Assembly: GCA_021773645.1 (NCBI GenBank)
Contig: JAJFJU010000012.1
Location: 124,001-188,000, forward strand
Length of the DNA stretch: 64,000 bases
Reading direction: 5' to 3'
Source of the DNA: Gammaproteobacteria bacterium
GTDB lineage: Bacteria > Pseudomonadota > Gammaproteobacteria > HK1
This document shows, piece by piece, positions 40,314 through 60,730 of the stretch. Positions within the stretch are counted from its first letter, which is position 1, and each line of letters begins with the position of its first letter. Below the pieces are notes generated by a model that was given only the letters and a program-made list of their open reading frames with translations, ran no database searches and was not told where the DNA came from. Both the position numbers and the translations under genes were made by a program.

Positions 40314-40314
40314 T

Positions 40315-41082: not shown

Positions 41083-41906
41083 TTCAGGCCCGCCAGGTAA
41101 TCCACCAGCATTTCCAGCTCTTTAGCGCTCATCTGTTCGCTATAGATGTTGGGCATCATGCCCGCCATGAACCCGGCGGCCGCATCGGCATTAGGGTCGA
41201 GCAGAGAGCGCCGCAGATAGGCTTTGTCGCGCGTGGCGCCAATGGTGGTCAGATCGGGGCCGACAGCACCTACTTGATCGGCCACCTTATGGCAGGCACC
41301 GCAGGTAAATTTGGCGATGATGGCGGCCGGCGTATCCAACGCGGTACGTGGTGTCGGTGGTGGATTCGCAGTCTCTTCCTTGGCCTCGGTGGGCGCAGCA
41401 TCCGTGGGGATGCTAACCGTCACATCGGCACCGGCGAGATCCTGCAGATAGGCGATGATGGCCTTGAGTTCGGCATCGGAGAGATCGATGCCATTCGCCG
41501 CGACATTGGGCATCGGGCTCTCGGTGTCGTTGCTGCCCGCCTTGCCAAACCCAGACACCACATAGGCCGACGGTTCCACCATGGATTCATACAGATAGTC
41601 GACCACGCTGCTGGCCTTGCCCTGATAACGGGTGTCTTGTAGGCGTTCTGCGGCCACGGTGGCGGCACTCGCCAATAAGGGGGCGCGACCGCCGGTGGGG
41701 TTATGACACAGGGTGCAGGTACCCTTGCCGTTGTAGAGGCGTTCCCCCAGTTTGATGAACTTCTCCATGGTCATGGTACCGAGTTCCAGCTTTTCCTCCA
41801 CTGGCGGCAGTGCCGGTTCGATCTGCGGGATGCCGTAATTGGCATAGCCGGCGAATAGGGTAATCACCAGCAGGCTGAAACACAGCACTTTCAGGAAGTT
41901 CTTCAT
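41079..41906 (-). CDS. Diheme cytochrome c (module 2)
   Basis: This 275-residue protein has one N-terminal transmembrane or signal helix and two haem-binding domains: CTLCHNPTGGRAPLL near residue 54, with an axial methionine in SPMPNV, and CGACHKVADQVGAVGPDL near residue 193. The ATG at 41906 overlaps the bd-like stop by four nt; a longer frame upstream is a shadow of the oxidase gene. It aligns with the 48438-49415 protein but lacks that protein's extra C-terminal domain. Confidence 0.9.
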   Translation of the reverse strand: MKNFLKVLCFSLLVITLFAGYANYGIPQIEPALPPVEEKLELGTMTMEKFIKLGERLYNGKGTCTLCHNPTGGRAPLLASAATVAAERLQDTRYQGKASSVVDYLYESMVEPSAYVVSGFGKAGSNDTESPMPNVAANGIDLSDAELKAIIAYLQDLAGADVTVSIPTDAAPTEAKEETANPPPTPRTALDTPAAIIAKFTCGACHKVADQVGAVGPDLTTIGATRDKAYLRRSLLDPNADAAAGFMAGMMPNIYSEQMSAKELEMLVDYLAGLK

Positions 41907-43750
41907 GCCGATGGTGTCTTCCAGTAAGCGTCTGTCGGTGTCTTGCGGCCGCTGACGTCGGCAATCCAGAATACAAAGATGACCATGGCCATGAACAGGA
42001 TGGTGCCCACGGAGACCACGTTGGCGGCATAACCCAGCCCCGGAGTGAAGGCATCGGGGGAGGCGTCGCGGAAGACGTTGGTGACATGCCAGTGCTGACG
42101 GATACCGGAGCGGATATAACCCATCAACCCCATCAGCCAAGTGAAGGCCACGGCGAGCAGGAACAGGGCGTATTGGGAGCGATCCGAGACTCGGCCCCAG
42201 TGTAGTGGCGCGACCTCTTTGGCACCCCGATACATGAGGCTGTCGATGATTGTGCTACTAACGATGATGGTCAGGGTGGTGAGCACCTGTGGGATTGAGG
42301 CGGCCACTTTGTACACGGTGTTGGTGAAGTAACCGTGATAAATGCCGAGGAAGAAGATGTTGAGGATGCCGGCGGTGAACAGGGCGATCTGGATGGCATT
42401 ACCCGCACTGGCCCAGGAGACCGTGGCGACCTTGTTGGCCCGCCTATAAAAGATAAAACTTAGAGTGGTAAACAGGATCATGATGTTCACCGCGGTGTTC
42501 TTCGCGGGCATGATGCCGAGTGGTCCCAGGTATTTGTGGTAGGGGCCGCCGAGGGCTTTGAGTTCTTCGTTGGTGAGCACCAGGGTATGAGGGGTGAACC
42601 ACACCAAAAAAGCGCCGACGATGACGATGGCCAGATATTTTATGTATTTGTGGTAGCGCACGGCGCCATCGCTGCGCCCCATGCCGCACCACAGATAATA
42701 GTTAGCAGACAGGAACAGGGTGCCGATGAGCACCGCCTGAATAATGAACAGCCAGGCGAAGACGCCGCCCATCAGGGTGATCCCCATCTGCTGGCTGTAG
42801 GCGTAGATCTCGGCAGTCAGGTAGTAGCCGGCAAAGGGTAGGGGCAGCAGCGCTGAGATGGCAATAAAGTTGGCGTTATAGCCCATCCAGTCATAGTGGG
42901 CGCGCTGCTCGGGCTTTCTCGCGCTGAGAAACTTGAAGGCGGCATAGGCGCCGACGATGGAGCCGCCATAGGCGATGTTGGCGATCACCCGGTGCAGGTT
43001 GATGGGATTCCACAAGAAGTTGTGGATGGCCGCCCACGCGTCACCACTGAAGACCCCGGCGGGGTCCACGCCTGCCGGGCTCATCATGAAGGTGACCCAG
43101 GCGTTGGCGAGGAACATCAGCAAGGTGCCCACGGCGTTGAGCAGCAGCCCGAGGCTCAGATGCACCCATTTTCGGAATTCACCCTGCAACCAGTGCCAGC
43201 CGTAGTAATAGAGGTACAGGGTGGCGCTTTCCAGGAAGAACAGCAGGGCGTAATAGAACATGCTCTCCTTGAAAATGGTGCTCATATACTGGAATAGGTG
43301 GGGATAAAACAGCACCAGCAGGAAGGTCAGCAGCCCACCGAGGATGGCGGTGAAGGAATAGGCAGTGATACTGACCTTAATGAACTCATAGGCCATGTTG
43401 TCGTAGCGTTTGTCCCGCGTGGCCATGCCAATGGCTTCGATGATGAATACAAAGATCGGCACCGCCAGTACGAAGGCTGCGAACCACAGGTGTAGTTGCG
43501 CGGCTAGCCACACCGCGATGCGGCTGTTTACGCCTTTGATAGTGGGGTAGTCGGCAGCCGTTAGTTTGGGGGCGGGTAGATAAGTTGGTGCGTCGGCGAC
43601 GTCGCTAGTGCTCGCCTCCGCCGCATGAGCCAAGCCACCATCGACACCGGGAAGGCCAATGGCAAACAGAATCAATAACAGGCTGAGGCAAAGGAACGCC
43701 AGCCAGACCCGGCGAGCCCTGTTGTTCGACCTTGGTGAATTGATCGTCAT
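41903..43750 (-). CDS. Cytochrome bd-like oxidase subunit I, short form (module 2)
   Basis: This 615-residue polytopic membrane protein has CydA-like helices: QLHLWFAAF near residue 86 (haem ligand histidine), YYALLFFLES (glutamate), GWHW, NAWVTFMMSPAGVD, and LHRVIANIAYGG (second histidine). I find no GRQPW quinol-binding Q-loop motif. An N-terminal hydrophobic leader with a possible signal-peptide site (HAAEA) precedes the core. It resembles the bd-like oxidases described for nitrite oxidisers such as Nitrospira, which are thought to take electrons from c-type cytochromes. The second paralogue is at 49412-51565. Confidence 0.88.
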   Translation of the reverse strand: MTINSPRSNNRARRVWLAFLCLSLLLILFAIGLPGVDGGLAHAAEASTSDVADAPTYLPAPKLTAADYPTIKGVNSRIAVWLAAQLHLWFAAFVLAVPIFVFIIEAIGMATRDKRYDNMAYEFIKVSITAYSFTAILGGLLTFLLVLFYPHLFQYMSTIFKESMFYYALLFFLESATLYLYYYGWHWLQGEFRKWVHLSLGLLLNAVGTLLMFLANAWVTFMMSPAGVDPAGVFSGDAWAAIHNFLWNPINLHRVIANIAYGGSIVGAYAAFKFLSARKPEQRAHYDWMGYNANFIAISALLPLPFAGYYLTAEIYAYSQQMGITLMGGVFAWLFIIQAVLIGTLFLSANYYLWCGMGRSDGAVRYHKYIKYLAIVIVGAFLVWFTPHTLVLTNEELKALGGPYHKYLGPLGIMPAKNTAVNIMILFTTLSFIFYRRANKVATVSWASAGNAIQIALFTAGILNIFFLGIYHGYFTNTVYKVAASIPQVLTTLTIIVSSTIIDSLMYRGAKEVAPLHWGRVSDRSQYALFLLAVAFTWLMGLMGYIRSGIRQHWHVTNVFRDASPDAFTPGLGYAANVVSVGTILFMAMVIFVFWIADVSGRKTPTDAYWKTPSA

Positions 43751-45169: not shown

Positions 45170-45817
45170 TTACTTGAAGCTGGCGACGTACTGCGCCACC
45201 TTCTTCATATTTTTTTCGCTCAATAGTCCCTTGAACACCGGCATGGAACGGACTGGTTTGAATTCTTTCGTATCCTTCAGATAGGCAAAGATCCAGTCTG
45301 GATTAAGGCGCTTGCCGGCACCCACCAGAGAGGGTCCTGAACGGCCTCCCTTGAACTTCTTTTTGCCTGGGAAGGCATGACATCCGCTGCAGGGCATTTT
45401 CTTGACGAAGATGAGGCGGCCCTTGGGGTTTTTCTTGGGCTTTATGAATCCGGACTTGACACTTTTTGAGGTCAGCGTCATGAGGAAATCGGTGACTGAC
45501 TTGGCATCGGCCGCTGCCAGCTTGGGGTGATTGCCGGGGTTGTTGACGGTCAGCGAGTTATATTTCAGCGAGCGTATGGGCTTGGGATCCTGCAACCAGG
45601 CCTGTAACCATTTTTGCTGAAACTTGCTGCCGGCATACCAGAGTTCCGGGCCCTTCTTGGCCAGTTGGTCGGCAATGCTTTTTTCCCGCGCCGGCCCCTG
45701 GGTGTAATGGCAGGCATTACATTTTTTCGCGGTAAATATCTTCTCTCCCGCATGAACGGGGGAGGCTGCCAGCATTAGTAGGGCAGAGCCTAATAAAGCA
45801 CTCGTCAATCGTTTCAT
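45170..45817 (-). CDS. Lysine-rich diheme cytochrome c
   Basis: This 215-residue exported protein has a signal peptide, haem motifs CNACHYTQGP near residue 33 and CSGCHAFPGKKKFKGG near residue 140, and a very basic stretch between and after the second motif. The ATG at 45817 is favoured over one six nt upstream because GGAG is then spaced 7 nt. The positive charge suggests docking to an acidic partner such as another cytochrome. It follows the diheme/EB_dh protein by 21 nt. Confidence 0.9.
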   Translation of the reverse strand: MKRLTSALLGSALLMLAASPVHAGEKIFTAKKCNACHYTQGPAREKSIADQLAKKGPELWYAGSKFQQKWLQAWLQDPKPIRSLKYNSLTVNNPGNHPKLAAADAKSVTDFLMTLTSKSVKSGFIKPKKNPKGRLIFVKKMPCSGCHAFPGKKKFKGGRSGPSLVGAGKRLNPDWIFAYLKDTKEFKPVRSMPVFKGLLSEKNMKKVAQYVASFK

Positions 45818-45838
45818 CAGCATTCTCCTTCAGCGCAT

Positions 45839-47481: not shown

Positions 47482-48441
47482 TTAGTGGGACTCCGGTATA
47501 CGTGGGGTCTTCTGGGCCAGTTCGTATTCCGCCATGATGATTTTCCAGCGCTCTTCCTCGCTGAGATTCAGCTTCCACTCCGGCATGGCGGAATCCCACG
47601 GGGTGGCTTCCGTGGGCAATCCTGGCCCACCGTTGCTAACCCGCCAGTAGGTGTAACCCTCGATGATGGTCTCGATGGTGCCGTTGTCGGTGAAGTTGAT
47701 GGGGCGCAGTTTGAATCCGTCCGCCATGGGGCCGTCACCGGCCACGCTGTCGCCATGACAGGGACGGCAGTTCATGGCGTAGAGGGCGCGTCCTTCGAAC
47801 AGATTCTTTTCCAGCAAGGCCGCTTTGGCGGTTTCTTTATCGACTTTTCCAGACTCTAATTGGGCAAGAAAATCTGTCATGGCCGCAGCGGGAATGAAGG
47901 ATAGCGGGTGTACTTCTTCCTCGTTGTTTTCAAGCCAGGCCTCCGCATCAGCCATCACTTGGGGAATCAGTTGTACCTCCTGGGCACGGGCCTGCTCGAT
48001 GAAGGCATCGATATCCGCTGCCGTGGGATTGGCAACGGGGTTGTGCAGATCTTCGAACTTGGCCGGGAAATTGGATGAGGGATGCTGGATGCGCAGCGAG
48101 GGCGGTAGTTGTGCCTTCGGTACGGCAGAGGAATACATCTGCCAGCCAATCAGCAGCGGTAGTACCACCAGGACTATCGTGCGCGGCAGTTTGCCGTAGT
48201 TTCCGCGCAGGAATTGCTTGATGGGATGAAGAAACTCATCCATATGGGTGTCGGAGAAGGTGACGAATAAGATCAGCGCCACCACCGTCAATAGCATGTA
48301 GATGAATATCAGCGTTCCCGGCACCGGTAACGGGAAGGGTAGCCCGGTGATCTGCCGGGAAACCGTGGGGATACCCCATTTCACCAAGGCATAGACCACC
48401 AGCAGGGTTAGCAGGACGGAGAAGAATCGGCTGATCTTCAT
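47482..48441 (-). CDS. Membrane-anchored monoheme cytochrome c (module 1)
   Basis: This 319-residue protein has three N-terminal helices (about 8 to 25, 42 to 62 and 84 to 101) and a periplasmic domain with CRPCHGDSVAGDGPMADG near residue 225. WRVSNGGPGLPTEATPW and an axial methionine in SAMPEW follow. Compared with its module-2 paralogue (255 residues) it has an extra acidic helical segment of about 60 residues before the haem. It overlaps the diheme gene by four nt. Confidence 0.9.
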   Translation of the reverse strand: MKISRFFSVLLTLLVVYALVKWGIPTVSRQITGLPFPLPVPGTLIFIYMLLTVVALILFVTFSDTHMDEFLHPIKQFLRGNYGKLPRTIVLVVLPLLIGWQMYSSAVPKAQLPPSLRIQHPSSNFPAKFEDLHNPVANPTAADIDAFIEQARAQEVQLIPQVMADAEAWLENNEEEVHPLSFIPAAAMTDFLAQLESGKVDKETAKAALLEKNLFEGRALYAMNCRPCHGDSVAGDGPMADGFKLRPINFTDNGTIETIIEGYTYWRVSNGGPGLPTEATPWDSAMPEWKLNLSEEERWKIIMAEYELAQKTPRIPESH

Positions 48442-49415
48442 TCGCTCTCACCCTTTTGCATCATCAGGTAGGCCTGCACATCCTGAAAATCTTTCACCGT
48501 CATGGCCTCGATGAGATCCTCGGGCATGATGCTTCTGCCCTCCTCTATCGCTATTTCCTTGATGTCGGCCTTGCTGATGGTGACTACTTCGCCGTTGTCC
48601 TTGGTGATATCGATTTCGGTCGCAGTGTCGCGGGTCTTCAAACCGATGGTGCGGCGACCTTCCTGATTCACCACCACCCAGGTTTCATAACCCTTGGAGA
48701 TTTTTTTGGCCGGCCGGAGGATGGATTCTGAGATGAACTTCAGGCCCTTTAGGCTGATGGCATTGAGATCCGGGCCAACATCGCCGCCCTCATCCTGAAC
48801 TTTGTGGCACTCGGCACAGTTGTCGTCAAAGACCTCCAGACCGGCACCGGGATCACCGCCGCCGGCGGCGGTGGCTGCGGCAATGCGGGCGTAGTATTTG
48901 GCGGAGATTTCACTGGGATTCTCTATGGCCTCGAGATCCAGCTCCCCACCCTGGCTTTGCAGATAGGCGATCACCGCTTTGATCTCGTTCAGATTGAGTG
49001 CGATAGGGGGTGCGTAGACGATGGCCATCTCGTCTTTGAAGCCCTCCACCACATAGGCACTGGGGACTGCCAGACTCTCTACCAGATAGTCAGTGGCAGT
49101 GTAGTTTTCACCAGTTTCCTCGGAGCGTTCTTTCGCCCGCTCCGCCGCACGCTCACCGATGGGCATAAGGAATTTCTCGCCGAATTGGCCTAGGTTCGGA
49201 CAGCGTACGGCGCTACCCTGATCACCAAGGCTATGACAGGTAAAGCAACGCCCCTTGCCCCAGAAGATGGACTCGCCACCTTCCGGCGTGATTTCCACGA
49301 TGCTGGCGGCCTTCTTCTCGCCACCAGTCATGGCGGTGATGGTTTGCCCCATCCACAGAAAAGCGCCGAGTAACAGCAGCAAAAACAGTAAAACTTTGCC
49401 GATGGAGCGGGTCAC
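48438..49415 (-). CDS. Diheme cytochrome c with extra C-terminal domain (module 1)
   Basis: This 325-residue protein has an N-terminal transmembrane/signal helix (residues 5 to 24), haem motifs CFTCHSLGDQGSAVRCPNLG near residue 59 and CAECHKVQDEGGDVGPDL near residue 207. The C-terminal beta-rich domain (IGLKTRDTATEIDITK, SIMPEDL) is like those fused to cytochromes of planctomycete-type dehydrogenases. GTG at 49415 overlaps the bd-like stop by four nt. The module-2 paralogue lacks the C-terminal domain. Confidence 0.9.
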   Translation of the reverse strand: MTRSIGKVLLFLLLLLGAFLWMGQTITAMTGGEKKAASIVEITPEGGESIFWGKGRCFTCHSLGDQGSAVRCPNLGQFGEKFLMPIGERAAERAKERSEETGENYTATDYLVESLAVPSAYVVEGFKDEMAIVYAPPIALNLNEIKAVIAYLQSQGGELDLEAIENPSEISAKYYARIAAATAAGGGDPGAGLEVFDDNCAECHKVQDEGGDVGPDLNAISLKGLKFISESILRPAKKISKGYETWVVVNQEGRRTIGLKTRDTATEIDITKDNGEVVTISKADIKEIAIEEGRSIMPEDLIEAMTVKDFQDVQAYLMMQKGESE

Positions 49416-51565
49416 GGCTCGTCCGTCTCTGCTTCGGCTGCCTGATCCTCGGTGGGGCCTTTCTTCGCGGCGATACCACCTAGCCAGAACATGAAGGCGA
49501 CCCCCAACATGAATACCAGTACGGTCAGACTCACCATCTGGGTCATGGTGTAGTTGCTGGGGGTGTAGGACCACGGCGAGGTATCGCGCATGACACCGAA
49601 GATGTGCCAGTCGCCGCGCAACCCGGAGCGGATGAAGCCCATCAGGCCCATATTCATGGTGATGATGAAGGTCAGTGCCAGCAGTGCGTACTGGCTGCGT
49701 ACGCTGATTTTACCCCACTGCAACTTGCCGATTTCTTTTGCATCACGGAACAGGAAGAAGTCGATGGCGGTGACCAGAATCAGACAGCTGATGAGTTGCA
49801 GGAACTGGCTGACAGCCACATTGCGCAGAAAGGGTGAGGCCTTTTCCATGACTACGAAGCCGTAGACTCCTAGGAAGATCACCACGCTAAAAGCGGTGGA
49901 TCCCAAGTAGAGGCCCTGGGCGAGCTTGCCTCGATCTTTCAGCGCTAGTATCACTGCCAGTACCGCCACGGCGCATTCGGCCAGCAGCAGATAGCCGACA
50001 GTACGGAAGTACTGCACCCGGTCGGCGGGCAGGTCCAGTTCGGCCGGGTCCATGTTCAGCAGGCTCAACCCATACTGGCCGACCATAGCCACTGCCGCGA
50101 GCCCCGCTAACGGGATAATGATCCTAGGTAATCGGCCCTGCTGGCTGATGGGGAGCACATCGCTTTTATTGCCACGCCGATAGAGCAAAAAGCTGAAAAA
50201 GGTGGAGAGAATGATGAGATTCACCACCGCGTTCTTGGCCGGCATCAGGCCCATGAACTTGAGTGTCGGATGGTATTGGCTGCCACCCATTTGCCCCACT
50301 TCCTGGCCCGTGAGCGGCAGGTTGTGCGGGGTCAGCCAGATGGCGAAAGAGATGATCAACGCAGCCAGAATCCACTTGATGTAGCCGTAGTAGCGCTGGG
50401 CACCGGGGATGCGGGTCATGCCACTCCACAGGTAGTAGTTGGTGATGATGAATAGCGAGCCCACCAGCGCCGCCTGGATGATGAAGGTCCAGGAGAAATC
50501 CCCGCCCATCATGTTGTTGCCCATCACCGCGCTGGTGGAGTAGACCTCGCGGCCTAGGTAGTAGCCGGCGAAGGGTAGGGGGATGAGGGCAGCGATGGCG
50601 ACGAAGTTGGAGATATAACCCATCCAGTCGTAATGGGCTTTTTCCTCCGGAGTTTGGGCGCCGATGAATTTCACTGCCGCGTAGGCACCGGCCACTAGGC
50701 CACCAAAGGCCAAGTTGCCGAGCATGCGGTGCATGGCGATGGGGGTGGCCAGGATGTTTTCAAAGGCCACCCACAGGGAGCCGGTCAGTGCGCCGTCCTG
50801 ATCCACGCCCGCCGGGCTCATCATGAAGCCGGCCCAACTATTGGCCAGTTGCATGATGGCGGTGCCGGCGACGTTGAGCAGGATGCCAATCATGATGTGG
50901 ACGCTCTTGCGGTCTTTCAGAATCAGAAAGCCGATGCCCGGTGGCAGGATGTAGAGCAGGGTCATGAAGGAGCGGGTGTCGCCGCGCATCTCCGGCCCCA
51001 GACCGCCGAAGAAGAACACCAGACCGAAGACGATGATGGCGCTACCGATCCCCTTGAACAGCCACTGCAGTCGTTTGCTGAATTGCTCACCGCCCTGCAT
51101 CCAGTGCCAGCCGTAGTAATAGAGGTAGAGACAGAAGGTTTCGGCGAAAAACAGCAGGGCGTACAGGAACATCACGTCCTTGAATAAGCCCGCCAAATAG
51201 CCCGTGAAGCTCGGGTAGAGGGTGAATAGGGCAAAGGCGAGCATGCCGCCGAGGGCTGCAGTAGTGGCGTAGGCGACACTTAGCAGGCTGGTGAATTCAT
51301 GCGCCAGCTTGTCGAATTTGGGATCCTTGTTACGCCAGCCCACCACCTCGATGATGACCGCGAATAGCGGTACACCGAGGACAAAGGCGGCAAAGAACAG
51401 GTGTAACTGGGCCAGGAACCAGATCACCTTGCGGGAGTCGCCACCGAGAATTTGGCGATATTCGTTAGCCTCCTGGGCGTAGGCCGGGGTTCCAACGAGG
51501 GCGAGCGCGGCTAGCGCCAGTATTGCCAGCGTTGGTTTGTACAATGGGCGGAACAGCCGATTCAT
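49412..51565 (-). CDS. Cytochrome bd-like oxidase subunit I, long form (module 1)
   Basis: This 717-residue protein has the same core as the 615-residue paralogue: QLHLFFAAF, YALLFFAET, GWHWMQ, NSWAGFMMSPAGVD, AMHRMLGNLAFGG, HYDWMGYISNFVA, and a terminal GLMGFIRSGLRG block. Two extra hydrophobic segments of about 60 residues each are present, one after GWHW (about 175 to 230) and one near 490 to 560. A signal-like leader ends in TPAYAQEA. I see no GRQPW quinol loop. Haem ligands appear conserved but oxidase activity is not shown by sequence. It overlaps the upstream cytochrome and downstream diheme genes by four nt. Confidence 0.88.
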   Translation of the reverse strand: MNRLFRPLYKPTLAILALAALALVGTPAYAQEANEYRQILGGDSRKVIWFLAQLHLFFAAFVLGVPLFAVIIEVVGWRNKDPKFDKLAHEFTSLLSVAYATTAALGGMLAFALFTLYPSFTGYLAGLFKDVMFLYALLFFAETFCLYLYYYGWHWMQGGEQFSKRLQWLFKGIGSAIIVFGLVFFFGGLGPEMRGDTRSFMTLLYILPPGIGFLILKDRKSVHIMIGILLNVAGTAIMQLANSWAGFMMSPAGVDQDGALTGSLWVAFENILATPIAMHRMLGNLAFGGLVAGAYAAVKFIGAQTPEEKAHYDWMGYISNFVAIAALIPLPFAGYYLGREVYSTSAVMGNNMMGGDFSWTFIIQAALVGSLFIITNYYLWSGMTRIPGAQRYYGYIKWILAALIISFAIWLTPHNLPLTGQEVGQMGGSQYHPTLKFMGLMPAKNAVVNLIILSTFFSFLLYRRGNKSDVLPISQQGRLPRIIIPLAGLAAVAMVGQYGLSLLNMDPAELDLPADRVQYFRTVGYLLLAECAVAVLAVILALKDRGKLAQGLYLGSTAFSVVIFLGVYGFVVMEKASPFLRNVAVSQFLQLISCLILVTAIDFFLFRDAKEIGKLQWGKISVRSQYALLALTFIITMNMGLMGFIRSGLRGDWHIFGVMRDTSPWSYTPSNYTMTQMVSLTVLVFMLGVAFMFWLGGIAAKKGPTEDQAAEAETDEP

Positions 51566-51963
51566 CGGGTCGCCTCAGCATTATCTTTCCGAGCTGCGAT
51601 TAAGATCACGGATGGCCCTTCATTGCTATGGCCCGCCTTTGCTGGCGGCTGATGGAATTGGCGCGCGTAACGCAATGCGGCCTGCTGTTCTGCATCGCTG
51701 AGGGCACCGGCCCACGGCGGCATGGCACCCTTGCCGTCACGGATGCTGGTTAATAGCTCTGTGTCATTTTTCTCCAGCCGCTCCCCTTTAATGAAGTTGG
51801 GGGCCCCCGGCATGATGGGCACACCGTCATAGCCGTGACACATGGCGCAGTTGTCTTCGTACAGTTCCTGAGCCTCGGCCAGTTCTATCTTTTCCGCGGC
51901 CAGTGCCGGGGTGGATAGGCTGAACAGGATGATGAGGCCATTTATAAGTGTGGTTTTCGTCAT
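51562..51963 (-). CDS. Monoheme cytochrome c
   Basis: This 133-residue periplasmic cytochrome has a signal peptide (cleavage after about LAAEK), haem motif CAMCHGYDGVPIMPGAP near residue 40 and an axial methionine in GAMPPWAG. The ATG at 51963 is 10 nt after the HEAT gene stop. Its C-terminal tail (about 30 residues) is hydrophilic. It sits directly before the bd-like gene and overlaps it. Confidence 0.9.
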   Translation of the reverse strand: MTKTTLINGLIILFSLSTPALAAEKIELAEAQELYEDNCAMCHGYDGVPIMPGAPNFIKGERLEKNDTELLTSIRDGKGAMPPWAGALSDAEQQAALRYARQFHQPPAKAGHSNEGPSVILIAARKDNAEATR

Positions 51964-51973
51964 CCGGAATTCT

Positions 51974-54229
51974 CTAGCGGGCAGTGAGAAGCGTGGTTTG
52001 GCCATGTAAGTGGCCGAGGGTGTCGATACAGATCCAGTGAAATTCTTCCTGCTCCGAATCGTCGAGCATGGCCAGTAGTCGGGGTGTGGCGGAGGTGTCG
52101 TGAATGCGGGCCAAGGTGCTGCCAATTTCCGGTTGTAATTCGCCAGGGAAACGGAACAGTAATTTCAGGATGGGTTCAGAGAGGGCGCTGCTCCAGTTGC
52201 CTAGCCGGATTGCCGCCAGGGCGGCACGACAGACCCCAAGGTCGCCATCATCCAGGGCGGTAATGAGATACATGCCCACTTTGTCGCCATCGCCCGTACC
52301 CAGGGCACTAATCACCCGCTCCCGGATGATGGGGTCTGGGTCATGCAGCATGCCGGCAAGGGTTTGCTCGGCATCACCGGGGATGCCCAATCGGGCCAAG
52401 GCGTCGAGGGCTACCAGTCGAATGTCGCGTTCTTCGGCATCTAATGCCTGCAGGATAGTTGCCTGAGCAGTTTTATCCCCAATGCGGCCCAGGGCCTCCA
52501 GGGCCTCTCGACGTAGCTCAAGCTCCGGTGATTCGGCTGCATTCATCAGCGCAGTTAGCACCTCGCTGCCGGGTTCGGGGAGACTTCCCAGTAAACGAGC
52601 AGCCACGATCCGGGTCGATGTATCACGGATCTCTATCTCCGGCTTCTCAGTTAATTCGTCGGGGGCTGTTTTATCGGGTGTCGTCGAAATCTGTGCTGGC
52701 TGCTTCGCCAGGATGGCAGCCAAAGTAGATGTTTCCGGTGTACCACTACCTACCAGCGCCGCCAGTTGATCCGTGTCTTGAGTTTCCTGCTCTGCTGCCT
52801 CGTCACTGGGCGCCTCTTCGTCCGAGGTGGGGGCTGCGTCCTCATTCCGAGTCGATTGGCCACGCAGAATGTTGGTCAGGATTTCGGCACCATGCCGCGA
52901 ATCCATCTGCATCAATGCCGCCATGGCCGCATGACCGACTCGTTCGTCGGCATCAAGTACTGCATCGGTAAGAACCGCCTCCGGTTCTACCGTTAAATCA
53001 CCGGATTCATCCGTATCATCCCTGGAAGCAGAATGTGGCGGATGGGAATCTGAGGTGACGGAATAGGTGGGAGCCAGGATCCTGCCCAGGGCGAGAGCTG
53101 CCTGGACACGAATGGTATGGGGGCATTCGTGATCGGCCAGCAGCTCGGCCAGACGTTGTTCGGGTCCTGGCCGCCCAATTTGTTCCAAGGCTACAACGGC
53201 CTCATAAAGCAGGGCCGTATCCTCTGTAGTCAGTAGCTGGCTCAGGGGTGCTACCGAGCGGGGATCCCGGATCTCCCCCAAAATTCGGACTATGCCCTTT
53301 TTTAGGGTCAGTTTTGATTCATCCAGCAGGGGATGTAAACGGTCAAGGATTTCGTGGTTGGGCAATTTGGCCAATGCATGGGCAGCCTCGGTAACCACGC
53401 CCTCGTCCACATCTCCGAGCAGCAGGGTGAGCGGTGCCACTACCAGTGGGTTTTGGGTGCCACCGATGGCACGAGCGGCATAGCTGCGCACCGCCGGGTC
53501 CTGATCTACCAAGGCGTTGCTTAGGGCATTAAGTAGTTCAGGTGAGAGCTCGCCTTGCTGTCCGTCGGGCAATGTTGCCAGGGCCAGGAGGGCCCTGCGT
53601 CGTGCCAGCCGGTTACCCTGACTGAGTTGTTCCAGCAGGAAGCCGCGGGCCTTGTCGTCGTCCAGGTGAACCAGCGCCCGAAAACCGCTTTCCTGGAGAT
53701 CTTCATAGGCCTCATCTTTCAGCAATTCGATGACTGGTTCCGTTGCCTGTCGATCACCAATGGATGCCAAGGCATTAATCGCCTGATTCAGCACCTCTGA
53801 GTCGGCGTTGTAAGGCTCATCATCTTCCATGGCATCCAGCTCGGGATAACCATCTTCCCGGATGCAACGAATCAATGGTTCTACCGAGTTTTTCGAGCGA
53901 ATGCTGCACAGGGCTTTGGCCACCTCAATACGGACTTCGCCGTCGGGATCTCCTTCGAGATTACGGATCAGTGGCTCAACCGCCGTGTCGATCTTCATGC
54001 GTCCCAAAGCCACCGCGACATCGGTTCTTACATCGGGATCGGGATGGAGCAGCAACTCTATGAGGTGTCCGACGGAGACGGGATCGCGGGCATCGAGTTT
54101 CTCCAGCGCACGTATGGCGCAGCACTGGGACAGGGAATTATCCCTGCCCAGCACCTCATGTAGTGCTCGTATCAGTGCATCCCGGTGGGTGTCCGTGGTC
54201 ACGGTTTGTTTTTGTTTTGCCGTGTTCAT
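51974..54229 (-). CDS. HEAT-repeat protein of the Mo-enzyme cluster
   Basis: A 751-residue protein almost entirely of HEAT/PBS-lyase-type helical repeats, each with the R..AA.ALG pattern (for example VRTDVAVALGRMKI, VRIEVAKALCSI, VRSYAARAIGG). A low-complexity acidic stretch lies at about residues 405 to 545. No signal peptide, so cytoplasmic. It follows the molybdoenzyme gene by 9 nt. Related repeats act as lyases or as assembly scaffolds, so an assembly role for the Mo or cytochrome complex is plausible but not shown. Confidence 0.85.
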   Translation of the reverse strand: MNTAKQKQTVTTDTHRDALIRALHEVLGRDNSLSQCCAIRALEKLDARDPVSVGHLIELLLHPDPDVRTDVAVALGRMKIDTAVEPLIRNLEGDPDGEVRIEVAKALCSIRSKNSVEPLIRCIREDGYPELDAMEDDEPYNADSEVLNQAINALASIGDRQATEPVIELLKDEAYEDLQESGFRALVHLDDDKARGFLLEQLSQGNRLARRRALLALATLPDGQQGELSPELLNALSNALVDQDPAVRSYAARAIGGTQNPLVVAPLTLLLGDVDEGVVTEAAHALAKLPNHEILDRLHPLLDESKLTLKKGIVRILGEIRDPRSVAPLSQLLTTEDTALLYEAVVALEQIGRPGPEQRLAELLADHECPHTIRVQAALALGRILAPTYSVTSDSHPPHSASRDDTDESGDLTVEPEAVLTDAVLDADERVGHAAMAALMQMDSRHGAEILTNILRGQSTRNEDAAPTSDEEAPSDEAAEQETQDTDQLAALVGSGTPETSTLAAILAKQPAQISTTPDKTAPDELTEKPEIEIRDTSTRIVAARLLGSLPEPGSEVLTALMNAAESPELELRREALEALGRIGDKTAQATILQALDAEERDIRLVALDALARLGIPGDAEQTLAGMLHDPDPIIRERVISALGTGDGDKVGMYLITALDDGDLGVCRAALAAIRLGNWSSALSEPILKLLFRFPGELQPEIGSTLARIHDTSATPRLLAMLDDSEQEEFHWICIDTLGHLHGQTTLLTAR

Positions 54230-54238
54230 GTGCTTCCG

Positions 54239-56944
54239 TTAGACGATATCTCGCCGTTTGAAGGTCATCTGGGCGAAGGTGTGCTTGAAGTGGCTCTCGC
54301 CGATCTTCCTGACGGTGCCGGTGGCAATCTTGAAGCGGTAGTTCTGGGTGATAGGGTCCGGTACCCGAGGGGTGATGTTATTGACCGGTTGGCTAGTGTG
54401 CAGGCACTCGGTGAAAGCCACGCCTTTTTTGACCGCCGGAGTGACAATGGCCACCGCCGATAAGGACCCGGTTACGAGCTTGATATGGCCCTTTTTTATT
54501 AGTCCGGAGAACCACATGTCGTCGCTTTTCACCCCCAAATTGAAGTCTGTCTGCACCGGTACCCGTTTGGACTCGATGGCCACCAGATCGCCGGATTCTA
54601 TGCCGCGCTTTTTGGCATCGTCTGGATGAATCTCGATGAAGTTCATCGGCCAGCGTTGCTGGGTATAGGGTCGGCGCTCGTAGTCATCAAAGCCGGATTC
54701 CCAAATCTCGTTGATGCGCCCGTTGCTGATCCACAGTTCATCGTTTTTTGGCTGCATGAAGTCGTAAAAATCAGACCACAATTTCCACGGTGATTTCACC
54801 AGATTGAGCTTGCCGGTCTGGGTCTTGAAGGCCAGCAAGCGCTTGTTGGTAATGGTCACGCCCTCCGGTCCGGTATCCGGGATATCGGTGCGGTTGTAGT
54901 CGTGCAACCGTTTGGTTTCCACCAACTTGTCGCCGAAGATCAGCAATGGAGTCTGCAGTCCGGTGGTGCCAAAGCTTCTGAGATATTCATGGGCCTTCAT
55001 GCCCTTACGTCGTGCCATCACGCGTATGGCGTTGTAGTCCTTGCGTGACCCGCGGGAGAAGCGGCAGGTTTCCTCGAATACTTCGTTGGAGTCCTTCCAG
55101 TCGTAACCATGAAAGCCCATTTTCTTGGCAAACATGGCGGCGATCTTCCAGTCAGGCAGGGCCTCTCCGGGTGGGTCATAGAACTTTGAATATAGCCGCA
55201 CGCGTCGTTCAGAATTGGCCCGGGCGAAGTCTTCCTCACCCCAGGTGGCGGCGGGCAGCACGATGTCTGCGTACTGGGCACCGATAGGATCCCGCAGGTA
55301 GATCTCCTGATTCACGACTACGGTGCCACCGCTATCCACCCGCTTTTTCAGGGTGTCGATGATGGTCTGCTTGTCGAAGCTGCGGACCTGATTGGGGTTG
55401 AGCTTTACCAGCCGACGGAAGGTGTCTTGTAGAGCCGAGGAGCCGGCCATAGCCTGGATCCAGGTGGTGCCGACTACGTAGGCAAAACGCACGTGGCCAG
55501 ATTCCAGCCAACGATCCAGATCCATGCGGTGACGCCTGCGGCCGGGTACCTTGTAGGGCGATTTCCAGCCCGGATATTTGCCACCGCTCATGCCGCCACG
55601 CTGGTGACCACCGAGGCGGGTAATCACCTGCCCCGGGCGGCCGCCACAGCCAAGGATTGCACCGAGGGTGCCGATAGAGGCGGTGTTGAGATAGTTATTG
55701 GACCAGTAGTTGCCTTTCTCGATACAGATGCTGGTCTTTACTCGCTCACCGTTGGCTTTGGGCTTGGCCATCATCTCTGCCGCCTGGTAGAGCTTTTTGA
55801 TATCTATGCCGGCAATCTTGGCTGCGACTTCGGGCTTCGATTCTTCTTGGGACAGTACCCACTCTTTGAAGTGCTTGGGTGAGCCCTCGTAGCCTTTGAC
55901 CTGAAACTTTCCCCAAGTAGTGCGCCACTGCCAGGGGGTGTTGCGGGTGCCTTGGCCGAAGCCAGAGTCGGTCTCCCAAGCGTTGGCCACCCATTTCTTG
56001 ATGAAGGCTTTGTCCTCCCATCCGCTCTCCATGATGATCCGCTGCAGGGCCAGATGGACCACGGTATCGGAGCCAGGATTGACGTCCAGATGCAGGCCAC
56101 CGTGTTTCTCGGCATAGGCGATGCCCGCGGTTTTTCGCGGGTTGATCATGACCACTTTCATGTTGTTGCCGTGGATGCCCTTGAGGATCCAGGTGTTCCA
56201 CAGGGTGGTCTTGGTTTCAAAGGGATCGGTACCAGAGATCACCAGGCAATCGGCCAGCGCAAAGTCCTCGTGGGAGGCGCTGAAGATGTCGTAGCCGATA
56301 TCTACCCAACCGGGCACCGAATTGACTATGGCGGGGTGGTCATGGTGTGCCACTGCAGGTGTGTTGATGCTCTTGAAGGCCAGCTTGGTCAGTGCATAGG
56401 TGTTCTCGAAAAACTGGTAGCTGAAGTACTTCAAGGCCCAGGCACTTTCGCCGTGTTTTTTAATCACGTACTTGGACACTTCAGCGGCGATATCCAGGGC
56501 AAAATCCCAGGTCACTGGCATGAGGATGTCGTTGATACGGATCATCGGGTGCTGTAACCGATCCTGGGTGGGTTTTTGCGGGTTGTAGACCTTCTGGGCG
56601 ATGCAGCCACCACGGATGCTGTGTCCGCCGCCGACATTGACCACGCGTGCCTTGTGATCGGCGACCACGGCAATGTTGTGGAGTCGTCCCTTATAGGTGG
56701 CCTGAGTGAACTGATTGGGTCCGACCCAGCCGCCTTGCCCGGGCCGTAACGGGTAATTCCGGTTGAGCGCGTTCTGGGATTTTTTAGGGCCGCCATCGGG
56801 TCCATTTGCCGGCCAGCGATAGACCTTCAATCCACAGGCCATGACGCAGTAGTCGCAGCAGGTGGTGAGTACCTCAGCATTTTTTGGAGGCAGCGGAACC
56901 TTGTCTTCCGGCTGATAAAACGGGGTGGAGTTTGAATCTGCCAT
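54239..56944 (-). CDS. AioA/IdrA-family molybdopterin oxidoreductase, catalytic subunit
   Basis: This 901-residue DMSO-reductase-superfamily enzyme has N-terminal C30-x2-C33-x3-C37 (CDYCVMAC) and Ser109 in HSIRGG where a fourth cysteine would sit, the pattern of the [3Fe-4S] cluster in arsenite oxidase. It also has GTDPFETKTTLWN, INPRKTAGIAYAEKHGG, RLGGHQRG, SERRVRLYSKFYDPPGEAL and ISNGRINEIWESGFDD, all aligning from memory with AioA. Arg443 and His447 match arsenite-oxidase substrate residues. The AioA segment holding the other His/Glu ligands is replaced by NSVPGWVDIGYD (208 to 219). No Tat signal, so it probably rides with the Rieske partner. Substrate unknown. Confidence 0.9.
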   Translation of the reverse strand: MADSNSTPFYQPEDKVPLPPKNAEVLTTCCDYCVMACGLKVYRWPANGPDGGPKKSQNALNRNYPLRPGQGGWVGPNQFTQATYKGRLHNIAVVADHKARVVNVGGGHSIRGGCIAQKVYNPQKPTQDRLQHPMIRINDILMPVTWDFALDIAAEVSKYVIKKHGESAWALKYFSYQFFENTYALTKLAFKSINTPAVAHHDHPAIVNSVPGWVDIGYDIFSASHEDFALADCLVISGTDPFETKTTLWNTWILKGIHGNNMKVVMINPRKTAGIAYAEKHGGLHLDVNPGSDTVVHLALQRIIMESGWEDKAFIKKWVANAWETDSGFGQGTRNTPWQWRTTWGKFQVKGYEGSPKHFKEWVLSQEESKPEVAAKIAGIDIKKLYQAAEMMAKPKANGERVKTSICIEKGNYWSNNYLNTASIGTLGAILGCGGRPGQVITRLGGHQRGGMSGGKYPGWKSPYKVPGRRRHRMDLDRWLESGHVRFAYVVGTTWIQAMAGSSALQDTFRRLVKLNPNQVRSFDKQTIIDTLKKRVDSGGTVVVNQEIYLRDPIGAQYADIVLPAATWGEEDFARANSERRVRLYSKFYDPPGEALPDWKIAAMFAKKMGFHGYDWKDSNEVFEETCRFSRGSRKDYNAIRVMARRKGMKAHEYLRSFGTTGLQTPLLIFGDKLVETKRLHDYNRTDIPDTGPEGVTITNKRLLAFKTQTGKLNLVKSPWKLWSDFYDFMQPKNDELWISNGRINEIWESGFDDYERRPYTQQRWPMNFIEIHPDDAKKRGIESGDLVAIESKRVPVQTDFNLGVKSDDMWFSGLIKKGHIKLVTGSLSAVAIVTPAVKKGVAFTECLHTSQPVNNITPRVPDPITQNYRFKIATGTVRKIGESHFKHTFAQMTFKRRDIV

Positions 56945-56959
56945 GGGGCTAATCCTCCG

Positions 56960-57511
56960 CTAACTTTTAAGGTTGTCGTAGCGGCCGTAGATCAGGCCGA
57001 GCATGCCTACCGCGTAGATATTGTCTCCGTCGAGTTCGAGCAGAACCTGAGGCAGACTTTCGGTGGCATGGCCGCTGACAACCATGCCGTGGCGAGTGAG
57101 GTCGAAGGTGGACTGATGCAGGGGGCAGGGACCAAGGACCTGATCTGCCGGCCTGTAAGTGGTGCCCATGAGGCCCCCCATATGGGTGCACAGGCTGTTG
57201 AAGGCCACCACATCGTGTTTGGGGCTGATGCCGCCACCGGCCTCGGCGCTGAGCTTGATCAGCAGGCTCTGGGAGTTGGCACCCTTGTCCGGATAGTTGA
57301 ATTTGACTGGCTTATCCACTTTGAGCCGGCTGAGCTTGCCAATGAGCATGCGCGGATAGCGGGCTATCTCGGCGGCCAGGGCTTGGCCTTCCATACCAGG
57401 GATGTGGTTTAGCACCACCGTGCCCCCCACCACTGCACCGCTGCGGAACAGGAAGGATCTGCGAGACATGCAGCCCGATTTCGACGGGGTCTTGTCTTGA
57501 ATGCTTGCCAT
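56960..57511 (-). CDS. Tat-exported Rieske protein, AioB/IdrB-like
   Basis: This 183-residue protein has a twin-arginine signal (SRRSFLF near residue 16) with a hydrophobic stretch to about 36. The Rieske cluster is C108-T-H110 and C129-P-L-H132 (CTHMGG, CPLHQSTFD). The two cysteines that form a disulfide in most high-potential Rieske proteins are replaced by Gly and Leu. It is the expected small subunit of the molybdoenzyme encoded 15 nt downstream. GGAGG precedes the ATG at 57511. A lower potential than for cytochrome bc1-type Rieske centres is expected from the missing disulfide, an inference. Confidence 0.9.
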   Translation of the reverse strand: MASIQDKTPSKSGCMSRRSFLFRSGAVVGGTVVLNHIPGMEGQALAAEIARYPRMLIGKLSRLKVDKPVKFNYPDKGANSQSLLIKLSAEAGGGISPKHDVVAFNSLCTHMGGLMGTTYRPADQVLGPCPLHQSTFDLTRHGMVVSGHATESLPQVLLELDGDNIYAVGMLGLIYGRYDNLKS

Positions 57512-57525
57512 GACGATCGCCTCCT

Positions 57526-58746
57526 TTATCTTTTCGTGGTGCTGGAGAGGTATGTCTCCAGCCCGATACGTTTGGCCTTCTTCTGGGTCAGCCCTTTGAC
57601 GTCCGGCATCACTCCGTAGCCAGGAACCTTGGGAATCGCCATGAGAATTTCCTCACCACTTATTTCTTCCAGAAAGATCACCAGAGCCTCTTTCTCCTCA
57701 TCGCTGAGGTTCAGTGGCTTGAGGATTTTGGTCTTGTTGCCGTATTGCTCAGTGAACTGGTTTTCGCCGCCGCCGTCGTTGTAAAAATCCACCACCTCTT
57801 CGAGGGTGAAGAACTGGCCGGCGTGCATATAGGGTGCGGTGTAGGCGAGATAACGTAGCGGTTGGGTGCGGAACTTGCCGGCATCCTTGATGCGTTTGGT
57901 GGTGAAATACACCCCGGCATCGTCCTTCCATTCCCGATAACGTTTTTCGTAGACTCCCTTGGCATAGTTCTCCCAGCGAAAGCTGATTTGGTTCATGCCG
58001 GATTCCTCGAACTCTGGAGGTTGAGGCAGACCGAGGTTGTAATACTTCTCATCGCTAAGTACCGGGCCGTTGTGGCACTCAATGCAATTGGCCTTGCCGG
58101 TAAATAGCTTCATGCCGGCGATGGCCTCTTTTGACAGCGCTTTTTTGTCGCCCTTTAAATAACGATCCAGCGGGGTGTTCTTTTGGGTGAGCATGTCGCG
58201 CTCGAAGGTGGCGATAGCCATCCAGGCGTCCAGCATATTGGGGCGCTTGGTGCCGAACACTTCTTCAAAGGCCTTGATGTAGTAGGGCGTTTGGCGCAAC
58301 CGTGCCTCCATTACGTCGTTCTCACCATTGCCGGCCAGTGCCCCCTTGTTGGCGGTGGGGGCCTGCTTTTCCAGACTCCCGACATTTCCTTGCCAGAACA
58401 GTTTGGATAGATAGCCGCTGTTAATGGCAGTGTGCGCATTACGCCAATGGACCGCGCCGGGATAACCCCGGGAGATGGGTTCATTGGTGCCAAAGCCCTG
58501 TTTGGGATCGTGACAATCGGCACAGGAGAGGCTGGCATCACCGGTGAGTTTCGGATCGAAGAACAGCAGCTTTCCGAGCTCGGATTTCGCCTTGGTAATG
58601 GGGTTGTCCAGCGGGGTGGGTACCGGCGGTAAAGGCGCTAGCCCCGGGTCCTTATCCGGATCGCCTTCGGCCAGGCCGTTTGTGCTGATAGTCGCCACAA
58701 CGAAGCTGGCGAGCAGCAGAGTGAATGACTTTGTGAGTGCTCTCAT
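57526..58746 (-). CDS. MauG/cytochrome c peroxidase-like diheme protein A
   Basis: This 406-residue protein has a signal peptide (to about 27) and two haem-c motifs, CADCHDPKQGFG near residue 75 and CIECHNGPVLSDEKYYN near residue 222, with YTAPYMHAGQFFTLEEVV and the FYNDGGG block of the CcpA/MauG family. A long C-terminal extension of about 40 residues is unusual. It starts 10 nt after its paralogue's stop. Two such proteins beside an AioA/IdrA-type Mo enzyme match the iodate reductase gene set, where they are proposed to act on reduced oxygen species. Confidence 0.9.
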   Translation of the reverse strand: MRALTKSFTLLLASFVVATISTNGLAEGDPDKDPGLAPLPPVPTPLDNPITKAKSELGKLLFFDPKLTGDASLSCADCHDPKQGFGTNEPISRGYPGAVHWRNAHTAINSGYLSKLFWQGNVGSLEKQAPTANKGALAGNGENDVMEARLRQTPYYIKAFEEVFGTKRPNMLDAWMAIATFERDMLTQKNTPLDRYLKGDKKALSKEAIAGMKLFTGKANCIECHNGPVLSDEKYYNLGLPQPPEFEESGMNQISFRWENYAKGVYEKRYREWKDDAGVYFTTKRIKDAGKFRTQPLRYLAYTAPYMHAGQFFTLEEVVDFYNDGGGENQFTEQYGNKTKILKPLNLSDEEKEALVIFLEEISGEEILMAIPKVPGYGVMPDVKGLTQKKAKRIGLETYLSSTTKR

Positions 58747-58756
58747 CGCCTTGTCC

Positions 58757-59914
58757 TCAGTTGTGTGTGCTTGCCCAGTTCGCGATGGGTGCATATTTCT
58801 GCGGCACCTTGACTGGCTTGACCGTAACGGGATTTTTGCTACTCAGACTGTTTAAAAAGGCCACCAGATCCTTCTGCTCCTTTGCCTTGAGTTTCAGAGG
58901 CTTTAGCTCGGTGGCGAGAGGATCATCGTGCCCACCGCCCCGGTTATAGAACGCCACCACCGCGTCCAGGGTGCTGATCATGCCGTTGTGCATATAGGGG
59001 GCGGTGTATTTGAGCTCGCGCAGAGTCGGTGTAATGAATTTGCCCACATCGGCGTAGTTTTTGCTCACCAGGAAATAACCGACGTCGCGACGCCAGATAT
59101 CCGCCTTGGGTACACCGTGATTGGTGGTTACCGCGCGGTAGGTGATGTGGCGCAGCGGGTTGTTGAAGATATCGAAGTTCTCGTCTACCCCGGTGTTGTG
59201 TGGCTTGCCGTCGGATAGATACGGACCGTTATGACACTGGATGCAGCCAGCCTTGCCTTCGAACAACTTACGACCGCGCTGGGCCGCCTTGGATAGCTTG
59301 CCCTGATCGAAAGGGGTCTTTGTGGAGACCAGCGTTTGTACAAAGGCCACCAGTGCCTTGCGGCCCTTGCCGGAGCTGCATTCGCCATTGAAATTCTGTT
59401 TACACATCTGCACGTACACCGGGTCCTGTTTCATGCGTTCGTGCATCAGTCGCATATCCAGATTCAGCACCATGGTTTCGGTGATTTCGTTGCGCACCAC
59501 ATCGTTGAGATTGGCTCCCATGTGCCCATCCCAGGACCAGCCAACGTTGCTAAAGTCTGCTTTATAGATGGTGTTGATGAGGGTGGGGGCGTTGCGGTAA
59601 TGCTTGGTGCCGGGATAGGCGTCGGACAGCACCATGGGCTTGCCGTCTGCATCCTTCTGGCGAGTGAAGCCTTGCGCCGGGTCGTGGCAGGTGGCACAAC
59701 TAATGGCACCATCACCCGATATACGGGCATCAAAGAACAGCCGCTTTCCCATCTCGACGAGACTGGCCTTGGGGGCCTTTTTTGCTGGCAGGGGGCCGAG
59801 CGCTGGATAGTTTCCGGCATGGGCGTATCCGGGAAGCGCGGTGACCGCGGCCGCTATCAGCACGCTCAATAAACCCGAGCGCCATAGAAATGTCTGTCTG
59901 ATTTGTTTCCTCAC
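58757..59914 (-). CDS. MauG/cytochrome c peroxidase-like diheme protein B
   Basis: This 385-residue protein has a signal peptide (to about 33), haem motifs CATCHDPAQGFTRQKDADG near residue 73 and CIQCHNGPYLSDGKPHNTG near residue 228, and PYMHNGMISTLDAVVAFYNRGGG. The overall layout is that of bacterial diheme peroxidases, with the first haem as the peroxidatic-type site. A CKQNFNGECSSGKG cysteine pair near residue 172 may form a disulfide. It is distinct from the neighbouring protein A by about half its length in hand comparison, so the pair is likely an old duplication. Confidence 0.9.
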   Translation of the reverse strand: MRKQIRQTFLWRSGLLSVLIAAAVTALPGYAHAGNYPALGPLPAKKAPKASLVEMGKRLFFDARISGDGAISCATCHDPAQGFTRQKDADGKPMVLSDAYPGTKHYRNAPTLINTIYKADFSNVGWSWDGHMGANLNDVVRNEITETMVLNLDMRLMHERMKQDPVYVQMCKQNFNGECSSGKGRKALVAFVQTLVSTKTPFDQGKLSKAAQRGRKLFEGKAGCIQCHNGPYLSDGKPHNTGVDENFDIFNNPLRHITYRAVTTNHGVPKADIWRRDVGYFLVSKNYADVGKFITPTLRELKYTAPYMHNGMISTLDAVVAFYNRGGGHDDPLATELKPLKLKAKEQKDLVAFLNSLSSKNPVTVKPVKVPQKYAPIANWASTHN

Positions 59915-59932: not shown

Positions 59933-60730
59933 TTACTTTGCAGAAAACACGAAATTATTTTCCACCGCGCCCTTGGCCGGGACGGTGATCTTGGTTTTTT
60001 GTACGCCGAGCCTGGGGTGCCAGGCCATAAGGGTGTATTTGCCCGCTGGGATGTTATCGATGGCATAGCTGCCGTCTTCCTGGACCACCACCGCGTAGGG
60101 ATGTTTGGGGGCCATCATGAAGCCGAACATGAAGTTGTGGGCCTCACAGTTGACCGCGATATGCGGCGAGCGCCGGGGTTTTAGTTCCTGCTCGATATCA
60201 CCCGGGTCCGGTTGCCCGAAGTTGAACATGGTGCGTTTGATGGGTTTGCGTTTTTTCTCTACGCCGATGAGTTCGCGGGTATTGATGTTGTGCAACACGC
60301 CGTTATCGCTGTTGCGGATCACCAAATTGCCGGGCTTGACCACTTGGGCCCAGGGGCGGAAGCGACAGCCCTTCTGATCAACCAGGTAATTCCCACCCTT
60401 GGGAGCACCCCATTTCTTGCCCTGCTTAACTTTGTTTAGATAGACGAAGGCACCGCGCAATGCGCCCTTATCTACATCAATCCAGATGACCTCGCGGTAA
60501 CCGGGATTGTTGGGGTCTTTGTCGCAGACTTCTGGGTTTTTGGTGATACCGATCTTCTCTATGGCATCTGCTGGCAGGGCACCTTCAAAGCTAAGTTTCC
60601 CGCTGATGCTGCCGCCATCGGTCACTTCCATGGTCTTGTATTTTGCCGCGTGACTCGACATGGGAAGGGCCAACAACAGGGCTGTTGCAGTGGCCAGGGT
60701 GTTCCAAAATTTGCCCGTTTGCATCGACAT
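59933..60730 (-). CDS. Cupredoxin-like / regulatory-domain periplasmic protein
   Basis: This 265-residue exported protein has a signal peptide (to about 28), a cupredoxin-type region with potential copper ligands in GVLHNINTRE and NCEAHNFMFGFM, and a C-terminal carboxypeptidase-regulatory-like beta domain (DGSYAIDNIPAGKYTLMAWHP). It is the first gene after the intergenic region and has the candidate sigma-54 promoter. Copper binding is inferred from ligand spacing. It may be an electron carrier for the complex. Confidence 0.75.
   Translation of the reverse strand: MSMQTGKFWNTLATATALLLALPMSSHAAKYKTMEVTDGGSISGKLSFEGALPADAIEKIGITKNPEVCDKDPNNPGYREVIWIDVDKGALRGAFVYLNKVKQGKKWGAPKGGNYLVDQKGCRFRPWAQVVKPGNLVIRNSDNGVLHNINTRELIGVEKKRKPIKRTMFNFGQPDPGDIEQELKPRRSPHIAVNCEAHNFMFGFMMAPKHPYAVVVQEDGSYAIDNIPAGKYTLMAWHPRLGVQKTKITVPAKGAVENNFVFSAK

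Follow-up and report, generated by a model that had tools for sequence, protein, structure and literature searches.

A distinct subclade of the iodate-reductase family encoded beside cytochrome modules of the nitrite-oxidiser type

Bacterial iodate reductases are recognized by a hallmark gene order, with two peroxidase genes followed by those for the Rieske subunit IdrB and the molybdenum (Mo) subunit IdrA, which is absent from the neighbourhoods of AioA, the Mo subunit of arsenite oxidase (PMC8692401, PMC10989891). In iodate-respiring Azoarcus DN11, IdrB harbours a CXHX18CX2H motif and the twin-arginine translocation (Tat) motif SRRSFL, and IdrA a CX2CX3CX70S motif (PMC10149662). Three marine Alphaproteobacteria, among them Roseovarius azorensis, have likewise been shown to reduce iodate (PMC11445184). 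In NT-26 AioA, the Mo=O ligand forms hydrogen bonds with His199, Glu207, Arg447 and His451, and the second sphere also comprises Asp169, Arg201, Lys413 and Glu453 (PMC10448176). Here we analysed a 64,000-nucleotide stretch of a gammaproteobacterial genome (contig JAJFJU010000012.1, positions 124,001 to 188,000), hereafter called the window, whose interval 54239-57511 on the minus strand encodes a Mo subunit and a Rieske subunit, as follows.

54239..56944, minus strand: IdrA-family Mo-bisMGD catalytic subunit, 901 residues, identified from motifs, NCBIfam, fold and alignment
56960..57511, minus strand: IdrB-type Rieske subunit, 183 residues, with the CXHX18CX2H and Tat SRRSFL motifs, identified from TIGR02694 and motifs

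Judged from its sequence, the Mo subunit is a member of the IdrA family and not an orphan relative of arsenite oxidases. It is 50-60% identical to other IdrA proteins from many phyla, versus 26-31% to AioA. Among plasmid records, three proteins share 50-54% identity with it, including one from Azonexus hydrophilus that is encoded in a peroxidase-peroxidase-small subunit-large subunit cluster, and the annotated AioA proteins remain under 31%. A scan of named genomes yielded 80 loci, about 20 of them at 71-95% identity and the rest, including Roseibium, Pseudovibrio, Ruegeria and Moritella, at 56-60%. The order peroxidase-peroxidase-IdrB-IdrA is intact in the window and recurs throughout that scan, except at a small number of truncated or rearranged loci. 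In a tree of 62 proteins, a very long, fully supported branch separates IdrA from AioA, with the window protein on the IdrA side, in a fully supported, monophyletic subclade of 18 tree rows sharing 71-95% identity. Relatives of the proven iodate-reducing types, namely the Roseobacter-type proteins and the Azonexus locus, belong to the same IdrA clade. The latter locus has genes for a sigma-54 regulator and a histidine kinase upstream, as in DN11, and for a cytochrome and moaA, as near the cluster of Pseudomonas SCT; our literature search found no paper on this Azonexus strain. Of note, one contig labelled Dehalococcoidia (L034) codes for an IdrA nearly identical to that of an Acidiferrobacteraceae metagenome-assembled genome (L031) and is likely mis-binned.

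The window proteins share with the IdrAB, IdrP1 and IdrP2 proteins of Pseudomonas sp. SCT, Denitromonas sp. IR-12, Azoarcus sp. DN11 and Roseovarius azorensis the gene order, the cofactor motifs, Tat export via IdrB and the loss of an AioA glutamate (see below). The Rieske and Tat motifs of IdrB are identical to those of DN11, and the CX2CX3CX71S motif of IdrA is one residue longer. This motif reads C30-X2-C33-X3-C37-X71-S109, so that all four residues of the [3Fe-4S] pattern announced by the original prediction, which had been made from the sequence alone, were found. Unlike the known IdrAB enzymes, the window protein belongs to its own subclade with an HDHP loop containing His203, and its gene island also encodes a cupredoxin-like protein (p265), a HEAT-repeat protein, a cytochrome bd-like module and putative heme-modification proteins.

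The best NCBIfam match of the Mo subunit is arsenite_ox_L (TIGR02693; 382.4 bits for a cut-off of 359.05), and the Rieske subunit similarly passes the cut-off of arsenite_ox_S (TIGR02694). Automatic annotation would therefore name the window protein an arsenite oxidase. As these models also capture IdrA-type proteins, with the Azonexus idr-type cluster bearing their names, they do not discriminate between the two families. Of the solved structures, arsenite oxidase is the best match to an AlphaFold2 model of the Mo subunit (pLDDT 76, 34 sequences), with Z 40.3 and 2.6 Å over 742 residues at 29% identity; together with the arsenite_ox_L score, this match bears out the predicted retention of the AioA scaffold. 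As the model is cofactor-free and its pLDDT falls below 50 in two stretches (residues 100-127 and 446-450), we make no claim on pocket geometry. With AioAB of Alcaligenes faecalis (1G8K) and NT-26 (4AAY), the window enzyme thus shares its fold (Z about 40), the [3Fe-4S]/Rieske architecture and the pocket residues H201, R443 and H447. It differs from AioAB by its low sequence identity, by the replacement of E207, R201 and E453 (NT-26 numbering) and by adjoining peroxidase genes, and no aio regulatory genes were seen in the cluster.

To describe the pocket (H201, H203, S209, R443, H447 and R449 in the window IdrA), we aligned 22 rows of the window subclade, with one genome represented twice, 63 other IdrA and 8 AioA proteins. 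The equivalent of NT-26 His199 is H201 of the window protein (HDHPAIVNSVPGWVDIGYD), which is present in all 22, 63 and 8 rows of the three groups. R443 and H447, predicted to match AioA, align with R447 and H451 of the NT-26 enzyme and are conserved in every row. Three of the four catalytic AioA residues are thus kept; the H199/E207/R447/H451 set is incomplete by the glutamate alone, which is replaced by S209. Because this glutamate is lost in 83 of the 85 IdrA-side rows, its loss is not peculiar to the window protein. Two further changes had been missed in the original prediction. NT-26 Glu453 corresponds to R449, with Arg present at that position in 84 of the 85 IdrA-side rows, and the second-sphere Arg201 is replaced by H203 in 22/22 subclade rows, whereas other IdrA proteins have Thr, Asn, Ser, Lys or Gln there and never His. 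No gaps are needed to align the segment NSVPGWVDIGYD (residues 208-219, N208-D219) with SEVHGTRDMGVG of AioA, and the alignment indicates that the former has diverged in place and has not been swapped. The idea that the AioA loop had been replaced, with loss of its substrate-binding histidine, was therefore right only for the glutamate: the histidine is retained as H201, just ahead of the segment in question. We also rejected the loop change as a sign of an unidentified substrate, as the trait is family-wide in IdrA and the key His is conserved. The prospect of a separate clade with a distinct pocket was borne out in part: the protein stands apart from AioA, and its IdrA subclade is monophyletic and marked by His203, but its sequence and peroxidase genes assign it to the known family of iodate reductases.

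We consider it rather likely that the Mo and Rieske subunits form a periplasmic oxidoreductase of the IdrAB type, in a distinct subclade of the iodate-reductase family, that reduces iodate. Iodate was the first candidate of the original prediction, and it is the best one in view of the identity to IdrA, the gene order and the DN11-type motifs. As for the proposed reaction, the Mo subunit would fold in the cytoplasm and exit together with IdrB via the Tat system. In the periplasm, single electrons would pass from the Rieske centre to the [3Fe-4S] cluster and then to Mo, where an oxygen atom would be taken off IO3-, guided by H201, R443 and H447 and by a funnel made more positive by R449. Hypoiodous acid would be formed and would then disproportionate. 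The two di-heme peroxidases may clear H2O2 or other oxidants arising en route, a detoxification role proposed for those of Pseudomonas SCT and Denitromonas (PMC8692401, PMC10149662). Electrons might be supplied by a module composed of the bd-like membrane protein, an EB_dh/NxrC-like heme protein, c-type cytochromes and the cupredoxin p265, which would link IdrAB to the quinone or cytochrome c pool.

The association of an idr operon with such a cytochrome module is unusual; elsewhere, modules of this kind are known from nitrite oxidisers. The other features of the island are the following.

57526..58794, minus strand: di-heme cytochrome c peroxidase/MauG-like protein of the IdrP1/P2 type, 422 residues, two CxxCH motifs
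58757..59914, minus strand: second di-heme cytochrome c peroxidase/MauG-like protein of the same type, 385 residues, two CxxCH motifs
59933..60730, minus strand: p265, exported cupredoxin-like protein (H147, C195, H198 and a downstream Met) with a C-terminal carboxypeptidase-regulatory-like domain
51974..54229, minus strand: HEAT-repeat protein, 751 residues, directly downstream of idrA, a position kept in many Idr loci
51562..52125, minus strand: mono-heme c-type cytochrome; the listed frame overlaps its neighbour, and the start is probably internal (MTKTTLI..., about 133 residues)
49412..51565, minus strand: cytochrome bd-like membrane protein with a CydA fold, 717 residues
48438..49574, minus strand: di-heme c-type cytochrome; the listed start overlaps the bd-like gene, and the true start is probably near 49412
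47482..48441, minus strand: membrane-anchored mono-heme c-type cytochrome, 319 residues
45839..47599, minus strand: NxrC-like protein with two cytochrome c domains, an EB_dh (heme b) domain (PF09459) and a C-terminal membrane anchor
45170..45823, minus strand: di-heme c-type cytochrome, 217 residues
43865..44506, minus strand: SCO1/SenC copper chaperone (PF02630), between the two bd-like modules
38793..43750, minus strand: second, paralogous module, ~6 kb downstream of the first, with the next four genes
41903-43750, minus strand: bd-like protein, 615 residues
41079-42140, minus strand: di-heme c cytochrome
40315-41082, minus strand: mono-heme c cytochrome
38793-40520, minus strand: di-heme c plus EB_dh protein
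33663..38537, minus strand: putative heme-modification trio, with the next three genes
36366-38537, minus strand: USP protein with four PCP_red domains
35051-36493, minus strand: radical SAM-SPASM/PCP_red protein
33663-35054, minus strand: protoporphyrinogen-oxidase-like flavoprotein

The window thus holds a CydA-like membrane protein together with an EB_dh/NxrC-like heme protein and c-type cytochromes. The AlphaFold2 model of the 717-residue bd-like protein has a low confidence (mean pLDDT 64); its best fold matches are to cytochrome bd subunit I (CydA; E 2.5e-6), and given its weakness it was used solely to confirm the CydA-type fold. p265 is coded upstream in the island and is conserved beside the idr genes in relatives, and we regard it as a candidate electron carrier. 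With the modules of the NXR clusters of Nitrospira, Nitrospina and Kuenenia and with TO_1 of Ca. Manganitrophaceae, those of the window share a CydA-like N-terminal domain, an EB_dh-type heme protein, c-type hemes with mono- and di-heme cytochromes c, and a cupredoxin-like protein, a likeness judged from domain content and published descriptions. They differ from them in being paired with an IdrA-type enzyme and not with NxrAB, and in occurring as two tandem copies. In the literature, bd-like modules have been proposed to act either as terminal oxidases for cytochrome c or as alternative complex III (PMC3578206, PMC10579370, PMC9040806). The window genome encodes its own bc1 cytochrome b and heme-copper oxidases, and either role would therefore be an addition, not a replacement.

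We characterized the distribution of the bd-like module in the genomes collected. It is found directly downstream in 12 loci of the window subclade, in Alpha-, Beta- and Gammaproteobacteria. Both planctomycete genomes of the subclade lack the bd-like protein, and its deltaproteobacterial genome has a homologue at only 44% identity, coded elsewhere. The same module (58-75% identity) is also found beside IdrA genes of other lineages (L056, L091 and L093), and the version with the 615-residue protein type occurs in further Gammaproteobacteria, one alphaproteobacterium and one Nitrospinaceae genome. As the bd-like/p265 module accompanies IdrA proteins of several lineages, it appears to serve the family and not one odd substrate. 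In a sample of 369 evenly drawn Gammaproteobacteria, including the window genome and a congener, IdrA and the bd-like protein were each found in 14 genomes and both of them in 9 (hypergeometric p 1.2e-11). Counted by families, these numbers are 11, 12 and 7, respectively (p 4e-8 to 8e-7 for 232 to 150 families). None of the 12 cultured-type Idr genomes searched (11 Alphaproteobacteria and Moritella) encodes the bd-like protein. Our literature search yielded no description of an Idr system with a module of the nitrite-oxidiser type, and, among the matches listed, no paper naming both iodate reductase and bd-like proteins.

Other features of the island recur elsewhere. Tandem bd-like modules are found in relatives L036, L041, L042 and L121. 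The USP/PCP_red, radical SAM and flavoprotein trio, which may make a modified heme, accompanies bd-like and Idr loci in numerous genomes, also without IdrA in L118 and L119. A gene for a PAS/histidine kinase (61133-63763), a possible regulator of the island, is divergently oriented upstream of it, and Moritella, Aliivibrio and Oceanospirillaceae (L085, L088 and L100) encode similar kinases (36-39%) near their idr genes. A PADLOC scan of one of the peroxidases gave no match.

Several points weigh against iodate reduction by the window enzyme. In the best tree, its subclade lies between the Azonexus/Thiothrix group and the Roseobacter/Moritella group (SH-aLRT 89-92); a test of whether proven iodate reducers significantly bracket the subclade did not establish this, as its placement as sister to all other IdrA proteins was not rejected (approximately unbiased test, p-AU 0.137). 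The position relative to the proven enzymes of SCT, IR-12, DN11 and R. azorensis was deduced from their relatives and from published work, and the pocket His203 is seen in no other IdrA row. The literature search revealed no biochemical test of the subclade or of any Idr island with a bd-like module. Finally, the enzymes that related modules accompany in nitrite oxidisers oxidise a donor, and this would fit the opposite direction.

An enzyme of the same family working in that direction, i.e. an iodide (or HOI) oxidase feeding high-potential electrons via the NXR-type module to O2 or back to quinone, is an alternative that we consider unlikely. The module resembles both those of the NXR clusters and TO_1, which has been proposed to act as a terminal oxidase that oxidises cytochrome c and serves high-potential donors (PMC3578206, PMC10579370, PMC9040806), and the 12 cultured-type Idr genomes do not have its bd-like protein. 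The SCO1 copper chaperone gene located between the two modules would also fit, and the agent of marine iodide-to-iodate oxidation is unidentified (PMC12335899). In two Gammaproteobacteria, a related module adjoins a type II DMSO-reductase-family alpha subunit gene in place of that for IdrA; the two proteins have an NXR-like length of about 1180 residues (L141:3357-6893 and L143:12426-15953). On the other side, the energy per electron would be very small (about 0.15 V by our own estimate for IO3-/I- versus O2 at pH 7), with sub-micromolar iodide, the peroxidases suit iodate reduction, and a dedicated oxidase is unneeded in genomes with bc1 and heme-copper oxidases. RuBisCO was not found in the window genome or in its two congeners, and we thus set autotrophy aside as a hint of lithotrophic growth by oxidation of iodide. 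In two betaproteobacterial members of the subclade, the bd-like protein has Lys in place of His57 (L041:14920-17040 and L042:14918-17023), a residue matched by eye to the ligand of the CydA high-spin heme; this substitution would speak against a common O2-reducing role. The reverse reaction retains a low probability because related modules accompany oxidisers of high-potential donors and because no test of module-bearing Idr islands emerged from the literature search. That these islands constitute a functional class running in reverse, with a periplasmic Mo enzyme oxidising iodide towards iodate and passing electrons to the bd-like oxidase, is rather improbable.

We hold it to be similarly improbable that the window enzyme has the IdrA fold but another main oxyanion as its substrate, such as bromate, chlorate, selenate, nitrate or nitrite. 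Promiscuity is common among the Mo oxyanion enzymes of this superfamily, and the monophyly of the subclade and its unique second-sphere His203 are consistent with such a shift; however, the complete idrP-P-B-A cassette is kept, and the His203 change by itself says little, since groups of the tested types already vary at that position (Thr, Asn and Lys). A divergent arsenite (or antimonite) oxidase, for which the AioA scaffold, the scores above cut-off for both TIGR02693 and TIGR02694 and the conserved H201, R443 and H447 could be invoked, is highly improbable, and was rejected despite those NCBIfam matches, given the loss of E207, the replacement of R201 by His and of E453 by Arg, the tree position on the IdrA side, the adjoining peroxidase genes and the presence of a bona fide, separate AioA in two subclade genomes (G001 and G460; 44% and 77% identical to NT-26 AioA), no separate AioA having been found in the window genome. 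The original proposal of a substrate other than arsenite is therefore well supported.

By sequence criteria, this analysis adds a new subclade of Mo enzymes to a known family and a new arrangement, in which Idr is combined with a module of the nitrite-oxidiser type. It also comes with a warning, as standard annotation will label such proteins as arsenite oxidases. Idr islands thus split into two genetic types, the bare cassette present in relatives of the tested bacteria and the cassette combined with a respiratory module. Marine metagenomes (Tara, Saanich Inlet, eastern tropical Pacific, hydrothermal and deep-sea samples) are apparently the source of many module-bearing members, and groundwater that of others. 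Whether their islands reduce iodate or oxidise iodide bears on the question of how iodate is renewed in the sea, for which no enzyme has been identified (PMC12335899), and the question can be tested on a defined gene set. If the iodide-oxidising reading were true, these islands would provide the enzymatic step that has been missing from the marine oxidation of iodide.

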